The notes beneath the pieces were generated by a model that worked only from the letters and a program-made list of their open reading frames with translations, was not told the origin of the DNA and did not search any database. A stretch of DNA of 64,000 bases, taken from the NCBI RefSeq assembly GCF_006542355.1, contig NZ_CP038141.1:715001-779000 (forward strand). Reading direction: 5' to 3'. Shown here piece after piece: positions 27,285 to 64,000 of this stretch. Numbering within the stretch: the first letter of the stretch is position 1; each line of letters opens with the position of its first letter. Source of the stretch: Swingsia samuiensis. GTDB taxonomy: Bacteria; Pseudomonadota; Alphaproteobacteria; Acetobacterales; Acetobacteraceae. The translations under genes were made by a program, and so were the position numbers.

Positions 27285-27324
27285 TTATTAACACTCCTTA
27301 ATTTATTAGAGGGAGTGTTAATAA
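27285..27324 (+). terminator. Terminator hairpin after the MscS gene
   Basis: Thirteen-base perfect arms TTATTAACACTCC and GGAGTGTTAATAA with a 14-base loop. It separates the channel gene from the peptide-export locus. Confidence 0.75.
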
Positions 27325-27417: not shown

Positions 27418-28719
27418 ATGAGTTCACTCTTCCGTCGCGAAGCTTTAGAAGCGCGCCAAATTAGTTGGTTAGGCAACGTCCAAATTAGCCAGCCATTACC
27501 TGTACGTATTGTTTCAGGCTTTTGTATTGTCTTAGTCATTGCCTCAGCCTTGCTCGTTATATTTTGCAACTATACACGACGGGTACACGCCACCGGACAA
27601 GTCATGCCTGAAAGTGGCCTTCTAACCATCAGCGCCACTCAACCCGGAACCATTACTGCAATCAAAGCCAAAGAAGGGCAGCATGTCCATCGAGGCGATA
27701 TACTCTTTATTGAAGATCTCGACATTATTTCTTCTAATGGATCTACACAAAAACAAGTTCTGAACGATTTATTAAGGCAAAAAGAACTCCTACAAAACCA
27801 ACGTGAGCTCCGGGAAAAATCTGCCCCCCTCGAGAAACAGGCACTTTTAAACCAAGTGCAGTTTCTCAACCAACAACACACGGAGATTAATGCTCAAATT
27901 ATATCGGATAACAAAGTTCTACCATTAGTCGAGCAAGCCCTGAACAAAATGTATATGGCGCAAAGCAGCCACCTTATTACAGAAGAGCAATTCCAAAGTC
28001 AGTTATCAACCTACGCACAGCTTCTCTCAACACATTCTCAAACACTACAGTCCCAAACAACAACTGAAGGTAAACTCTCTGACATTGTTTCCAAAATAAC
28101 ACGCTTTAATTCTGACCTTACTCATGATCTTAATGATCTTGATAAACAAATTGCCTCAGTCGACCAGCAAATAGCCGAGAATGAAGGCCGCCAAAGTAAC
28201 ATTATTCTTGCGCCAGAAGATGGCACTCTCACCAGCCTGCGTGGATATTTAGGGCAGCAAGTGAGTGCTAATACACCCTTAATCACTTTATTACCCAATA
28301 ATGATAAATTACAGGTAGAGCTTTATGTGAATAGTTCTTCCATTGGTTTTCTAAAAGTCAATCAACCTGTACTTCTTCGCTATGATGCCTTCCCTTACCA
28401 AAAATTTGGTTTACAACATGGCCATATTATTGAAATCACCCACGCTCCTGTAACATCAGATACTGTCGCAAATAGAGCAGCCGCGTCTGCGCCCCAAGGA
28501 AAGCAAGGGATACCCTCTACGTCTGGTCAGGATATTTACCGCATCCGCGTTCTTCCAGACCGCTCCTATATTCAGACCTATTCCGAAAAACACCCTCTAG
28601 AGGCCGGAATGACAGTCTCCGCAGATATTGCAACGGATAGACGCCCCCTCTGGCAATGGATCCTCGATCCAGTCATCAGCATCAAAAACACAATCTCCAC
28701 AACAACAATTGGCCCATAA
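27418..28719 (+). CDS. HlyD-family periplasmic adaptor of a peptide/bacteriocin exporter
   Basis: A membrane-fusion protein linking an inner-membrane ABC exporter to an outer-membrane channel. 433 residues: a cytoplasmic N-terminus with LFRREALEARQISWLG, a form typical of CvaA-like adaptors, and one membrane helix (about 31-52). A lipoyl half-motif follows (VHATGQVMPESGLLTISAT ... GTITAIKAKEGQHVHRGD), then a long coiled-coil hairpin (about 95-255) and the second lipoyl half (NIILAPEDGTLTSLRGYLGQ). It is followed directly by the C39 ABC transporter, 16 bases to its likely start. No TolC gene is nearby. Confidence 0.92.
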   Translation: MSSLFRREALEARQISWLGNVQISQPLPVRIVSGFCIVLVIASALLVIFCNYTRRVHATGQVMPESGLLTISATQPGTITAIKAKEGQHVHRGDILFIEDLDIISSNGSTQKQVLNDLLRQKELLQNQRELREKSAPLEKQALLNQVQFLNQQHTEINAQIISDNKVLPLVEQALNKMYMAQSSHLITEEQFQSQLSTYAQLLSTHSQTLQSQTTTEGKLSDIVSKITRFNSDLTHDLNDLDKQIASVDQQIAENEGRQSNIILAPEDGTLTSLRGYLGQQVSANTPLITLLPNNDKLQVELYVNSSSIGFLKVNQPVLLRYDAFPYQKFGLQHGHIIEITHAPVTSDTVANRAAASAPQGKQGIPSTSGQDIYRIRVLPDRSYIQTYSEKHPLEAGMTVSADIATDRRPLWQWILDPVISIKNTISTTTIGP

Positions 28720-28735
28720 GAGCAAAGATAGAAAT

Positions 28736-30862
28736 ATGCTTCGCGACCTTCAATTCGGCTTTGGAAAACGCACTCCTGTTATTTTGCAATCAGAATCTTC
28801 TGAATGTGGAATGGCATGCCTTGCCATGTCTATGGGCTATTATGGTCATTTTATTGATATTTCTACGTTTCGCCGTCAATACGGTGCATCAACACAAGGC
28901 GCCACCCTTAAAGAACTCATCTCCGTTTCAAGTCGTGTGGGGCTCAACTCACGCGCTGTAAGGCTAGAGTTGGATGAACTTGATAAACTAACGCTACCCA
29001 GTATTCTCCATTGGGGCCTTAATCACTTTGTCGTTCTGGTTGAACGCCGCTCCAAGAGTGTGATCGTCCACGATCCTGCTATTGGCCGTCGCGAAATCGG
29101 TTTGAAAGAACTTTCCCGCGAATTTACAGGGATTGCACTCGAAATTACGCCAACAGAACGGTTTGAACGTAAAGACGAACGTAAAACCTTAACATTACGT
29201 GACATGTTTCGTCATGTCTCAGGCCTAAAGCCCGCTCTTGCTTATCTTTTCGCTCTTTCTTTAGGGCTTGAACTTATTGCATTAGCGATGCCCATGGTGA
29301 GCCAAGTTATTATTGATGAAGTGATTGTTATTGGTGACCATGATCTTTTAGTCACGATCGCCTGTAGTATGGCCATTCTATTACTATTCCAGCTTTTCAT
29401 TTCCACTGTGAGAAGCTGGGCTGTCATTATGTTTAGTACCCGTGTCTCTTTAAAATGGAATGGTTCTCTCTTTGACCATCTAACACGCCTTCCTCTTGAT
29501 TACTTTATTCGTCGTCATATTGGGGACGTTATTTCTCGTTTTGGGTCTCTTGGGAGCATCCAACGTACTATTACAACAGACCTCGTCCAAACTATTCTAG
29601 ATGGTATTATGGCCATCGGAATGGGAGTAATGTTGTTTTTATACGGTGGATGGCTAGGAGCCATTGCCTGTATTGCAATCGCACTTGACGTCCTTTTACG
29701 TCTGGTCACATACGGTACCTACAAGCGAGCCTCTGAAGAAGGGGTTATTCAAGATGCGAAAAGTCAAACCTATTTCATAGAAACGCTACGCAATATTGCT
29801 ACCGTAAAACTTCTTAATTTACGTGAACGCCGGCAAACTGTTTGGCTAAACAGTGTCATTGATTCAATGAATATTCATTTACGCCTCCAAAGATTTGACC
29901 TCATTTTCGGGCGCCTTGGGGATCTAATTTTTAGTTCAGACCGACTAATTATGCTCGTTCTTGGCGCAAAAATGGTCATGAACAACCATATGTCCGTTGG
30001 TATGCTCGTGGCTTTCCTCTCTTATAAAGATCAGTTTGCTAGCCGTGTTGGAAATTTAATTAATACAGGCTTCAAACTTAGGATGTTAAGCATTCAAACG
30101 GGCCGTTTATCAGATATTGTTATGACCGAACCCGAAGAGCCAGGCCTTCCTCTTCCTCCGCCATCCCCTCAAGAAATGGGACATACAGGCGCCATCACGG
30201 TAAGAGATCTTTCTGTGCGTTATAGCCCTGAAAGCCCTTGGATTTTTCGTAATCTTTCTTTCAATATTCCAGCCGGAAAAAATATTGCCATCGTTGGCCC
30301 TTCAGGCTGCGGCAAAACGACACTTCTCAAAACTCTTATGGGATTACTTGAACCCACAGAAGGCGATATTGCCTTAGATAATATTTCCATTAAGTCACTT
30401 ACACTTGACGGCTACCGCTCCCGTATTGCTGGGGTATTACAAGATGATGGACTTTTTTCAGGGTCTTTATCTGATAATATCAGCGGGTTTGCCGAACATA
30501 TCAACCAACCGCTTGTGGAGGCATGCGCACAATATGCTGCCATCCATGACGATATTCAGCGCCTCCCCATGCGTTATGAAACACTCGTTGGCGATATGGG
30601 CTCCAATCTTTCAGGAGGGCAAAAGCAACGCGTTATTCTTGCTCGTGCTCTTTATCGTTCACCGCAAATCCTATTTTTAGATGAAGCAACCAGCAATCTA
30701 GATGAAGCGACAGAAGCACGCGTTGCACAAGCCTTAAGAATGCTAAACATCACCCGTGTTATTGTTGCACACCGCCCTGCCACCATCGCTCACGCAGATG
30801 TTATATTACACATGACCCCTCAAGGGTTACAAATTGAAACACGCAATATGGAGAAATCCTAA
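28736..30862 (+). CDS. Peptidase-domain (C39) ABC exporter for double-glycine peptides
   Basis: A PCAT-type transporter that cleaves leader peptides after Gly-Gly and exports the product. About 708 residues from the ATG 28736; an open frame from 28628 overlaps the adaptor and is less likely. The C39 domain is intact: Gln18 and Cys24 in QSESSECGMACLAM, His97 in LNHFVVLVE, Asp113 in VHDPAIG. Membrane helices span about 160-430. The ATPase has Walker A GPSGCGKTT, signature LSGGQKQR, Walker B ILFLDEATSNLD and H-loop VAHRPATI. Together with the adjacent leader-bearing precursor it forms a coherent export system. Confidence 0.95.
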   Translation: MLRDLQFGFGKRTPVILQSESSECGMACLAMSMGYYGHFIDISTFRRQYGASTQGATLKELISVSSRVGLNSRAVRLELDELDKLTLPSILHWGLNHFVVLVERRSKSVIVHDPAIGRREIGLKELSREFTGIALEITPTERFERKDERKTLTLRDMFRHVSGLKPALAYLFALSLGLELIALAMPMVSQVIIDEVIVIGDHDLLVTIACSMAILLLFQLFISTVRSWAVIMFSTRVSLKWNGSLFDHLTRLPLDYFIRRHIGDVISRFGSLGSIQRTITTDLVQTILDGIMAIGMGVMLFLYGGWLGAIACIAIALDVLLRLVTYGTYKRASEEGVIQDAKSQTYFIETLRNIATVKLLNLRERRQTVWLNSVIDSMNIHLRLQRFDLIFGRLGDLIFSSDRLIMLVLGAKMVMNNHMSVGMLVAFLSYKDQFASRVGNLINTGFKLRMLSIQTGRLSDIVMTEPEEPGLPLPPPSPQEMGHTGAITVRDLSVRYSPESPWIFRNLSFNIPAGKNIAIVGPSGCGKTTLLKTLMGLLEPTEGDIALDNISIKSLTLDGYRSRIAGVLQDDGLFSGSLSDNISGFAEHINQPLVEACAQYAAIHDDIQRLPMRYETLVGDMGSNLSGGQKQRVILARALYRSPQILFLDEATSNLDEATEARVAQALRMLNITRVIVAHRPATIAHADVILHMTPQGLQIETRNMEKS

Positions 30863-30954
30863 CACTTAATAGATAGACCCTTTGAGAAAAACCATTGTAT
30901 TAAAACAAATTTTTATCTAACAACCACAGATTATAAAAAGTAAACAACGGTTTA

Positions 30955-30992
30955 TTATAAATAAACTTGATTTATGTCAAGTTTATTTATAA
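30955..30992. promoter_or_regulatory. Perfect 16-bp inverted repeat upstream of the precursor gene
   Basis: TTATAAATAAACTTGA (30955-30970) is an exact complement of 30977-30992, with a 6-base loop. It lies between the ABC exporter and the peptide gene, about 100 bases before the latter. No T-run follows on the plus strand, so it may be an operator or an mRNA structure as well as a terminator. The decamer ACTTGATTTA recurs at 31058-31067, just before the peptide gene. Confidence 0.5.
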
Positions 30993-31088
30993 GCTTATAC
31001 AAATATAATACTTACATTATTTCAATACATATTATAGCATATATTTGAATCGATTCGACTTGATTTAAACTTGACTATAAAAGAGACG

Positions 31089-31463
31089 ATGATGCGTGAA
31101 CTAACCACTCTTGAGCTCAATGAAGTTTCAGGCGGAGCAACCACTCCACAAATTGGAACAGGTACAGCGTCTGATCTTGGAGACGCTCTTTTAGGTGCCC
31201 TCGCAGGCGCTGCTATGCTTGGTGCAACCGGAATGACCATCGGCGGAATTCACGGCGGTGACGGTGGCGGAATTCTAGGTTTTGGTTCAATCGGACAAGC
31301 TGTTGGCTTGGTTATTCCAACGATTGAAGGAGCTGCTACGGGCTTTGTACTCGGCGGTATATATGGCTTCCATAATTTCCAACCTTGGATCAACCAATTG
31401 CTATTAGGGGCCTCCAACGGCACTCTCGGACAAGGCGGCAATGCAGCGGGTATCCGGGTCTAA
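31089..31463 (+). CDS. Double-glycine-leader, glycine-rich secreted peptide precursor (bacteriocin-like)
   Basis: About 124 residues from the ATG at 31089, or one codon later; the frame opens at a TTG, 31071. The leader MMRELTTLELNEVSGG fits the class II consensus: L at -12, E at -8, L at -7, V at -4, and GG at -2/-1. The predicted mature product is 108 residues, no cysteine, 29 glycines, with GxxxG-like hydrophobic stretches such as GDALLGALAGAAMLGATG and EGAATGFVLGGIYGF that could insert in membranes. It sits directly downstream of the C39 exporter that would process it. It resembles a large microcin or class IIb-type peptide, but the target and activity are unknown and no immunity gene was recognised. 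Confidence 0.85.
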   Translation: MMRELTTLELNEVSGGATTPQIGTGTASDLGDALLGALAGAAMLGATGMTIGGIHGGDGGGILGFGSIGQAVGLVIPTIEGAATGFVLGGIYGFHNFQPWINQLLLGASNGTLGQGGNAAGIRV

Positions 31464-31482
31464 TAGGCTGTAAAGGTCTAAG

Positions 31483-31527
31483 AAGACATTTCTCAGCATT
31501 TTTTATATTAGTGTTGAGAAGTGTCTT
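31483..31527 (+). terminator. Terminator hairpin after the peptide precursor
   Basis: AAGACATTTCTCAGCA (31483-31498) pairs with TGTTGAGAAGTGTCTT (31512-31527) with two wobble positions around a T-rich loop, followed by TTCCTT. Placed 20 bases after the precursor stop. Confidence 0.7.
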
Positions 31528-31533
31528 TTCCTT

Positions 31534-31586
31534 ATCATTTATAATAATCAAATAACGATCCCGTATACTTGGTTATTATAAATGAT
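31534..31586. promoter_or_regulatory. 14-bp inverted repeat upstream of the Hint-protein gene
   Basis: ATCATTTATAATAA (31534-31547) and TTATTATAAATGAT (31573-31586) are perfect complements 25 bases apart. The right arm shares TTATTATAAAT with 30952-30962 upstream of the peptide gene, and a related palindrome ATTATTTATAAT occurs at 31605-31616. This suggests a common regulator for both genes; it is inference. Confidence 0.4.
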
Positions 31587-31639
31587 CCAGCATCTTAATG
31601 TTGCATTATTTATAATACTCCCAAATAAATGGATCGAAA

Positions 31640-33202
31640 ATGGCTATTACATGGAGCAAAGACACCACTTATAGCATAGAAAATGCTAATATTTCTGAAG
31701 CAGATGGCAGTGTCCGTATCCCTCCCGCTCTAAACAAGGGCTACCCACCAGGAACCAATCAAACCAATACTGTGTTTGGAACCTATCCTGGCTCTATTTT
31801 AGGAATAGCGTCTATCACCATCCCCAAAGGAACAACAATCTCAAGTGTAAACGATGTTGTCCCCGCAACTATCACTTTTAATAGTTTAAATCCTCTTTAT
31901 GCTAATCAAACTTTCCAAGTTTTATTGAAATATTACGGCTATAATACCTATGCCAAACAAGAAAGCCCATCTGGTACGACCAGACTTGGATTGCCAGCAG
32001 GGGGAGCCAGCACCCCTGACTTTAACAACATTCAAGATGCTCTCAATTTTAGCTTCGTGAGGGTTGTCCCCAACTCCCTGACAGGGGGACGAAATTTAGA
32101 CACAACAACACTCAACAAATTTGCACGAATGAGTGATGTTTCTTTATTACCAACTTATACAACAGGATCTGTTTCTACATATCCAGATGGAACTCTCTAT
32201 AGAGATATTCCCTCATTGGATATTTGTTTCTTATCTGGAACGGAAATAAAAACATCCTCAGGTTTCAAAAAGGTTGAAGATATTCAAGTTGGAGATTTTA
32301 TTCTTTCCCCAATAAACGGAATAGAAACTCCTAAAGCGGTAACGTCCATTCAAAGAAATCGGATCGCTTGTCTCTCCAAAAAAGATATGCCCGTCTGCTT
32401 TAAACAAAACTCAATTGCAGATGGCGTACCTTACAAAGACCTTTATGTTACAAACGAACATTGCCTTTTCTTCAATAATAAGCTGATCCCCGCAAGAATG
32501 CTCGTGAACGGTTTATCTATTATCGTTGATGAGTCATTTTCAGAGTATGATTCTTATCATATTGAATGCGAGGAACACTGCCTTCTCATTGCAAATGGTG
32601 CGTATACGGAAAGCTATTTAGATACTACCCATACGTTTGAACACCATCACAATATTATACAGTTTGGTCAAAAAACATGGGAAAAAGATGCGGTATTCCC
32701 ACTTACAACGAATAGAGGAGAAGTAGAGCCTATATTCGCCTCTTTGCGTTCAAGAGCAACATCTCTTAACTACCCTAATGTTCTAAAAAATAAGCACCTT
32801 ACCCATGACCCAGATGTAAAACTTTATACATCCAACAACACAGAAATCCTTCCTCTTCGAGTCAACGAAGGCAGGTATATCTTCCATATTCCAGCAAATC
32901 ACAACTCAATACGTCTATCATCTCGAGCCAGCCAGCCCAGTGAAACAATTGGCCCTTTTGTAGATGATCGTCGTTTTCTGGGAGTCTTGGTTGGCGAGGT
33001 TCTCTGTTTCCAAGAAAAAGAAACGTATAAAATTAATGATCATCTTATAGAACCCACCCTATCCGGCTGGCACTCTATAGAGAATAGTCAACATCGGTGG
33101 ACAAAAGGAGATGCCTTTATTCCATTAAATGAAGTAAAAAATCCCAATAAAGAAAAATTAATTTCAATTCAAATTTCTAATAACAATGCGTATATTTTAT
33201 AA
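31640..33202 (+). CDS. Hint (hedgehog/intein) domain protein next to the peptide exporter
   Basis: 520 residues, no signal peptide and no double-glycine leader. Residues 1-190 are an undefined Asn/Thr/Tyr-rich beta-type region. A Hint_2 domain spans about 195-330: the start DICFLSGTEIKTSSGFKKVEDIQVGDFIL has cysteine 196 as the potential nucleophile, the block-B-like VTNEHCLFF carries Thr271 and His274, and CLLIANGAYTESYLD is the family end. Residues about 420-520 (RLSSRASQPSETIGPFVDD, then RRFLGVLVG) match a module I associate with alphaproteobacterial surface or sugar-related proteins. Autocleavage at Cys196 is plausible from the motifs but unproven. Its partner role in peptide export is unknown. 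Confidence 0.82.
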   Translation: MAITWSKDTTYSIENANISEADGSVRIPPALNKGYPPGTNQTNTVFGTYPGSILGIASITIPKGTTISSVNDVVPATITFNSLNPLYANQTFQVLLKYYGYNTYAKQESPSGTTRLGLPAGGASTPDFNNIQDALNFSFVRVVPNSLTGGRNLDTTTLNKFARMSDVSLLPTYTTGSVSTYPDGTLYRDIPSLDICFLSGTEIKTSSGFKKVEDIQVGDFILSPINGIETPKAVTSIQRNRIACLSKKDMPVCFKQNSIADGVPYKDLYVTNEHCLFFNNKLIPARMLVNGLSIIVDESFSEYDSYHIECEEHCLLIANGAYTESYLDTTHTFEHHHNIIQFGQKTWEKDAVFPLTTNRGEVEPIFASLRSRATSLNYPNVLKNKHLTHDPDVKLYTSNNTEILPLRVNEGRYIFHIPANHNSIRLSSRASQPSETIGPFVDDRRFLGVLVGEVLCFQEKETYKINDHLIEPTLSGWHSIENSQHRWTKGDAFIPLNEVKNPNKEKLISIQISNNNAYIL

Positions 33203-33254
33203 AAAAATATTCTTATATAGTATTTGAAACTAATCACCTCTTAAAACTTTAATA

Positions 33255-33294
33255 TAATTGGTGATAGAGACTCACTCCCCTCTATCACCAATTA
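33255..33294. terminator. Bidirectional terminator between the Hint gene and the MarR-type gene
   Basis: TAATTGGTGATAGAG (33255-33269) and CTCTATCACCAATTA (33280-33294) are perfect 15-base arms with a 10-base loop, in the gap between two convergent genes. Confidence 0.8.
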
Positions 33295-33337
33295 ATATAA
33301 ATCCACAAAAAATTTAGCGCTTAGCAATAACGCAGCT

Positions 33338-63873: not shown

Positions 63874-64000
63874 TTAGGCACTGATGGAAGCAACAGAAGA
63901 GACACTCGCATCTTCTTCAAGAACATACGGACCAGCCGCAAGAACCTGAACACTGAAAAGACTGAAGTCTTTGCCTGTCTTCACAGGGACATACGCATTC
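63874..64000 (-). CDS. 3' end of an unidentified gene
   Basis: The minus-strand frame from the right edge reads NAYVPVKTGKDFSLFSVQ, then VLAAGPYVLEEDASVSSVAS, and ends ISA followed by TAA at 63874-63876. About 41 residues are visible, a fragment too short to assign a family. It is followed by the hairpin at 63755-63798. Confidence 0.55.
   Translation of the reverse strand, partial: NAYVPVKTGKDFSLFSVQVLAAGPYVLEEDASVSSVASISA

Follow-up and report, generated by a model that had tools for sequence, protein, structure and literature searches.

A glycine-zipper peptide export locus of Swingsia samuiensis with a Hint-domain protein as the likely cognate partner of the peptide

The locus described here raises the question of what a large Hint-domain protein does beside the gene of a small exported peptide. 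It lies in a window of 64,000 nucleotides, the whole stretch of Swingsia samuiensis DNA that was analyzed, and contains four plus-strand genes, which encode an HlyD-family periplasmic adaptor (433 aa, 27418-28719), a CvaB-like C39 peptidase/ABC exporter (708 aa, 28736-30862), a double-glycine precursor (124 aa, 31089-31463), and the Hint protein (520 aa, 31640-33202). An earlier note on this DNA had presented them as one unit, possibly of the microcin type, and had left the fourth gene unexplained. Our best explanation for the whole, to which we assign a probability of about 0.5, is that an exported peptide is accompanied by a specific Hint partner that would be released by autocleavage and act in an immunity-like manner.

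The assignment to microcin-type export is supported by the exporter, the adaptor, and the double-glycine precursor. The ATG of the exporter (28736) is 16 nt past the HlyD stop, and the protein matches the Pfam domains Peptidase_C39 (3e-34), ABC_membrane, and ABC_tran, with Walker A at residue 521, LSGGQ at 625, and Walker B at 645. The peptidase residues noted earlier as kept, Gln18, Cys24, His97, and Asp113, are present, and all four are found in each of the 25 aligned exporter relatives. The adaptor matches Pfam HlyD_3 (2e-13) and the NCBIfam model type_I_hlyD at 2.5e-39, which is under the cut-off of that model. No other C39 exporter was found in the 2.19-Mb, two-contig genome. The unit contains no TolC gene, as had been stated, though 10 OEP/TolC-type frames (20 matches, two per frame) are present elsewhere in the genome. 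The exporter is matched by 934 plasmid records at E <= 1e-100, 741 of which are from Escherichia (367), Klebsiella (201), and Salmonella (173). CvaB-like exporter clusters in which no Hint gene was detected were also seen on a Gluconobacter thailandicus plasmid (NZ_CP043044.1, L312:5878-12583), with a gene for a 463-aa hypothetical protein 3' of the exporter and two other double-glycine peptides, and on a Kozakia baliensis plasmid (L313:2305-7288), where a gene annotated as a retropepsin-like aspartic protease sits ahead of HlyD. At a further locus (L130:8454-11868, genome G126), the exporter and HlyD are split into several broken frames, and the locus is apparently decayed.

The two hairpins that had been taken for bounding terminators (27285-27324 and 33255-33294, plus strand) are real as hairpins, the first with 13-bp perfect arms (MFE -17.7, z -5.6) and the second with arms at 33248-33269 and 33280-33301 (z -9.3), but a clear U-run is present in neither. 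Two more lie within the locus on the same strand, one between exporter and precursor (30955-30992; 16-bp perfect arms, z -5.9) and a strong one between precursor and Hint gene (31481-31529; z -6.6), in which UUUU ends the 3' arm. Because of these two strong internal hairpins, the precursor and the Hint gene probably do not form one simple operon with the exporter, and the Hint partner and the peptide may therefore be produced at different levels. A single four-gene operon is countered also by the gene order, which differs across genera. The four genes themselves are real and lie on the plus strand. When the intervals between precursor and partner were checked elsewhere without shuffles, strong hairpins were found in L116 (two) and L125 and a weaker one in L119, while none was seen in L254.

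The precursor starts with the leader MMRELTTLELNEVSGG (31089-31136, plus strand; alternative start 31092), which fits the C39 cleavage rule, as proposed earlier, and is conserved in the precursor alignment A1. A double-glycine leader (MRELTTLELNEVSGG, conserved across A1) and a nearby C39 ABC exporter plus adaptor are both features of class II microcins. The 108-residue core (31137-31460, plus strand) has a calculated mass of 10218.5 Da and consists of 27% Gly with 13 GxxxG motifs, compared with 7.3 in shuffled sequences, 12 of 2000 of which reach 13. It thus has the glycine-zipper character of Cdz-type proteins, and at least six GxxxG motifs occur in 11 of 13 paired cores. DUF5862 is matched by six of ten A1 members (best 1.1e-9) and weakly, under the cut-off, by the window core (2.3e-5), whereas the Pfam MccV model gave no match to the window core and matches one of the ten A1 members (3e-4). 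The A1 profile matches 45 of 397 family genomes, 21 of the rows listed having no leader. Three tandem glycine-zipper precursors adjoin one Hint gene in genome G013 (L119:8738-9888), and five differing double-glycine precursor-like frames lie upstream of an exporter in G091 (L127:5133-7362), with no Hint gene in the 12 kb covered.

In all likelihood, the exporter and HlyD, together with a TolC-type protein encoded elsewhere, would cut this precursor after Gly-Gly, and the 10-kDa glycine-zipper peptide would be exported and act in the manner of class II microcins or Cdz proteins. By analogy with microcin V and the Cdz proteins, the core is probably antibacterial and may act on the membranes of competitors. 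The microcin V system (CvaA/CvaB/CvaC/Cvi with TolC) also combines a double-glycine leader and a glycine-rich core with an adaptor plus C39 ABC exporter; it differs in that here no small membrane immunity gene was found and a 520-aa Hint protein adjoins the peptide. In the Cdz system of Caulobacter crescentus, likewise an alphaproteobacterium, small glycine-zipper proteins use type I export; the accessible text gives CdzC and CdzD as 86 and 84 aa and CdzI as a small inner-membrane immunity protein with three TM segments (PMC5380434). The present system has a Hint partner, and no small CdzI-like frame with three TM segments was seen beside the window precursor.

The Hint protein can be divided into three parts, namely an N-terminal passenger, here called type A (residues 1-195, 31640-32224), the Hint domain (residues 196-328, 32225-32623), and a conserved C-terminal domain with GPFVDDRR, GW, and RWT motifs (residues 329-520, 32624-33199), all on the plus strand. 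Pfam Hint_2 matches residues 195-329 of the 520 at 8e-25. The self-processing residues ascribed to this protein were found as Cys196 (32225-32227), Thr271, His274, and His307, and the Hint Cys1 and TxxH residues are invariant in 43 of 43 aligned rows. With Cys1, TxxH, and the HINT fold, in which the aligned ranges start at Cys196 (equivalent to position 1 in inteins and to 258 in hedgehog), the domain has the defining features of the HINT superfamily. The post-Hint part is common to the 43 rows, which were recruited partly by motifs in this very part, and the pre-Hint part varies. In cholesterol transfer of the hedgehog type, Hint is followed by an adduct-recognition region that binds a sterol; here Hint is followed by the C-terminal domain, a model of which gave no confident structural match. 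A crude hydropathy check saw no signal peptide or TM segment in the passenger or the Hint protein. A splicing intein was considered and rejected, since the domain ends in G320..T-E324-S (E324 in 43 of 43 rows) with no C-terminal Asn plus Cys, Ser, or Thr; without Asn plus a nucleophile at this end, protein splicing is not expected. This end sets the domain apart from bacterial intein-like (BIL) domains and hedgehog Hint, as do its own C-terminal domain and a passenger matched to a bacteriocin-like peptide.

The earlier note had tied the reality of the unit to conservation of the precursor frame and to the Hint gene staying with the exporter in relatives. The precursor is indeed conserved across genera. 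Of 25 exporter relatives, a few of whose stretches stop at contig ends, only three (L121, L125, L262) have a Hint gene at 2 kb or less from the exporter unit, and six more, of genus g33 (L124, L246-L250), have one 4-5 kb away. The idea that the Hint gene always belongs to that unit was therefore rejected. The gene is, however, linked to the precursor. A Hint-family gene lies within 1.2 kb in 14 of 35 precursor clusters, compared with 0.48 expected from the Hint density of each genome, in 10 of 25 after pruning of near-copies (0.36 expected), and in 9 of 24 when a contig-end case is also removed (0.35 expected). These loci are the window, L116 (two pairs), L119, L121, L125, L251, L254, L262, L264, and L298-L301; at L245 the start of a passenger lies beside a precursor at a contig end. 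The orientation of precursor and Hint gene may be co-directional, divergent, or convergent. In the remaining 21 of 35 clusters there is no Hint gene within 1.2 kb, and an adjacent one is therefore not indispensable to the peptide. The Hint_2 proteins encoded elsewhere in acetic acid bacteria also have the Hint domain and, in most of those aligned here, the same C-terminal domain; they differ in their passengers, which are often repeat-rich, and neither precursor nor exporter was found within up to 9 kb on each side at any of 80 named Hint loci. As judged from this distribution, the Hint protein is a partner of the peptide and no constant member of the unit formed with the exporter.

The type of passenger follows the type of peptide. 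Strong matches to passenger A occur in 6 of 397 family genomes (G000, the source genome, G013, G030, G070, G101, and G316) and weak ones in two, and in five of the six an A-type peptide is encoded no more than 1 kb away; a further A pair, in G246 (L251), was missed by the profile. Since this profile had been built from most of these passengers, the test was repeated leaving out one genome at a time (G000, G013, G030, G070, G101, G246), and all six were recovered, with best E-values per genome of 6.6e-21 to 2.8e-5; among the decoys listed, competition comes only from copies of A members and from the A-like passengers of genus g33. For passenger B, strong matches were obtained in 2 of 397 genomes, namely G013 and G040, from which its profile had been built, and in both it adjoins a B-type peptide. 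The two B-type peptides are 55% identical over 87 residues, their genera and gene orders differ, and the two B passengers match only each other among 144 passengers. A third matched type, D, is kept at a distance from the exporter in five g33 genomes (L264, L298-L301).

In genome G013, which holds both an A pair and a B pair, the three peptides next to passenger A reach 26-31 bits with an A-core profile from which they had been left out, versus 6-14 with B and 1-5 with D. As the two pairs are matched within one genome, shared ancestry alone is not the cause of the match. The similarity of the peptides is correlated with that of the passengers over 13 pairs (rho 0.46, P 0.0007) and also in reduced sets of nine (0.34, P 0.037) and eight pairs (0.39, P 0.030). 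In a quick tree of Hint plus C-terminal domain, 15 labelled proteins require 7 label changes versus 14.4 when shuffled (0 of 500 as low), a result that near-copies help. Some observations run counter to this picture. Type A is a loose family, and several of its pairs do not resemble each other one to one; the single A-type Hint gene of G013 is accompanied by three A-type peptides, the A-like passengers of genus g33 lie apart from its A-type peptide (100.9 bits), and G118 has an A-like passenger without a detected peptide. Taken together, the sequences make it highly likely that Hint passenger and peptide form cognate pairs, and pairs matched in this way are seen in other acetic acid bacteria as well.

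How the partner might work is indicated by the cluster of G070, where the order is precursor, precursor, passenger alone (197 aa), passenger-Hint, OEP/TolC on the other strand, HlyD, and exporter. The stand-alone passenger A (L125:12254-12844) ends within two residues of the start of the Hint Cys of its sister, and downstream of it no confident Hint remnant was detected (best E 0.35). Because a natural stand-alone passenger stops at the position of the Hint Cys, the comparison suggests that it is the free passenger that works and that a cut at Cys196 generates it. The Hint domain would thus cleave off the passenger through Cys196, and the released passenger would recognise its own peptide.

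Immunity proteins of microcins are small membrane proteins. According to PMC13174018, an immunity protein is typically expressed by microcin producers. No classical immunity gene was found here, in line with the earlier remark; the window has one 56-codon frame with a TTG start and a single crude TM segment (31385-31552), which overlaps the end of the precursor, and no TM-type frame of at least 28 aa is common to the A-type loci (window, L116, L119, L125, L251). Saccharibacter sp. 17.LH.SD (G101) has four passenger-A Hint genes, one with an in-frame stop, and neither a C39 exporter nor a peptide was detected in it; by analogy, these genes resemble orphan immunity genes. On account of the missing shared membrane frame and the orphan copies in one genome, we favor protection of the producer and tentatively propose, at somewhat less than even odds, that the passenger binds its cognate peptide and serves as an unusual immunity protein. 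Against this speak the large size of the Hint protein, which has no visible signal or TM segment, and the fact that immunity leaves the need for a Hint domain unexplained. If it is correct, the passenger would belong to an immunity protein that processes itself, in contrast to the small membrane proteins that are known to confer immunity to such bacteriocins.

A serious rival, less likely than protection, is that the released passenger is a co-exported second component, which keeps the peptide on the surface or delivers it to a target, as in a two-part or contact-dependent weapon. It has to be weighed because the Hint protein uses a Hint domain and has no signal or membrane segment. The pairing and type matching fit co-export as well, an OEP/TolC gene lies within the G070 cluster, and other Hint proteins of the family carry repeat passengers that look adhesin-like by eye; in addition, Cdz glycine-zipper proteins are retained on the producer surface according to the accessible text (PMC5380434). 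On the other hand, the lack of an export signal in the Hint protein also counts against this proposal, as does Saccharibacter sp. 17.LH.SD, which retains its passenger-A genes without exporter or detected peptide. A passenger of this kind would make the system a new two-part bacteriocin. More speculatively, and rather improbably, the Hint domain may form a thioester at the end of the passenger and hand the activated passenger to an acceptor (possibly a surface lipid, a glycan, or the exported peptide), so that a receptor or shield specific for the peptide would be fixed to the surface of the producer. This would amount to Hedgehog-like logic in bacterial antagonism, with each glycine-zipper bacteriocin having its own Hint protein.

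We consider it quite unlikely that the genes merely share a neighborhood, mobile and fast-evolving envelope genes gathering in the same genomic islands and the Hint protein having an unrelated, adhesive role. Hint relatives are far more widespread (118 of 150 family genomes) than the exporter (36 of 150 at E <= 1e-60), no precursor was found within up to 9 kb of any of the 80 named Hint loci, and orientation varies among loci, all of which would agree with such islands. However, peptide type tracks passenger type across genera and inside one genome, and the labelled Hint proteins cluster on the quick tree (7 versus 14.4 changes, with help from near-copies); since the types match, mere shared islands are unlikely. 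In MafB-type systems, Hint is a processing domain. A MafB-like polymorphic toxin released by the Hint domain is very improbable and was rejected for its reversed domain order, the post-Hint part being common to the 43 rows, recruited partly by its motifs, and the pre-Hint part varying, and no toxin domain was matched in Pfam, even if the term Hint domain occurs in the accessible text of MafB papers.

For the preferred reading of an exported peptide with a specific, immunity-like Hint partner, no precedent was found: searches of openly licensed papers gave no description of a microcin-like peptide that has a Hint protein as its partner, and no assigned role for Hint_2 proteins of acetic acid bacteria was found in the literature searched. 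A Hint protein of unknown function is listed among mutations of a cellulose producer in one study (PMC11999647). The accessible text of a survey of specialised metabolism in the family mentions hint-domain proteins beside a PKS in Asaia and reports no RiPP clusters in Asaia or in the Saccharibacter-Bombella clades (PMC8776678), so such peptides may have been overlooked there. Through the matched pairs, one branch of the Hint_2 proteins, which acetic acid bacteria have in abundance, gains a partner and a function that can be tested. Some of the hosts are associated with insects or inhabit fermented food, settings in which such competition matters.

The source genome encodes 11 Hint_2 proteins. 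From about position 63877 onward, at the edge of the window (G000:C1:778877-791661), lie three tandem giant Hint genes with frames of 1029, 1636, and 1446 aa and equal Hint-domain scores, and the genome has similar triplets at around 620-627 kb and 891-897 kb. The equal scores suggest that the genes were duplicated recently or underwent gene conversion. The source genome also has a second HlyD-type gene (487 aa) behind a 739-aa frame that by eye appears to encode an ABC protein (L290:6515-10197, G000:C1), and the two are a candidate export route for Hint proteins.
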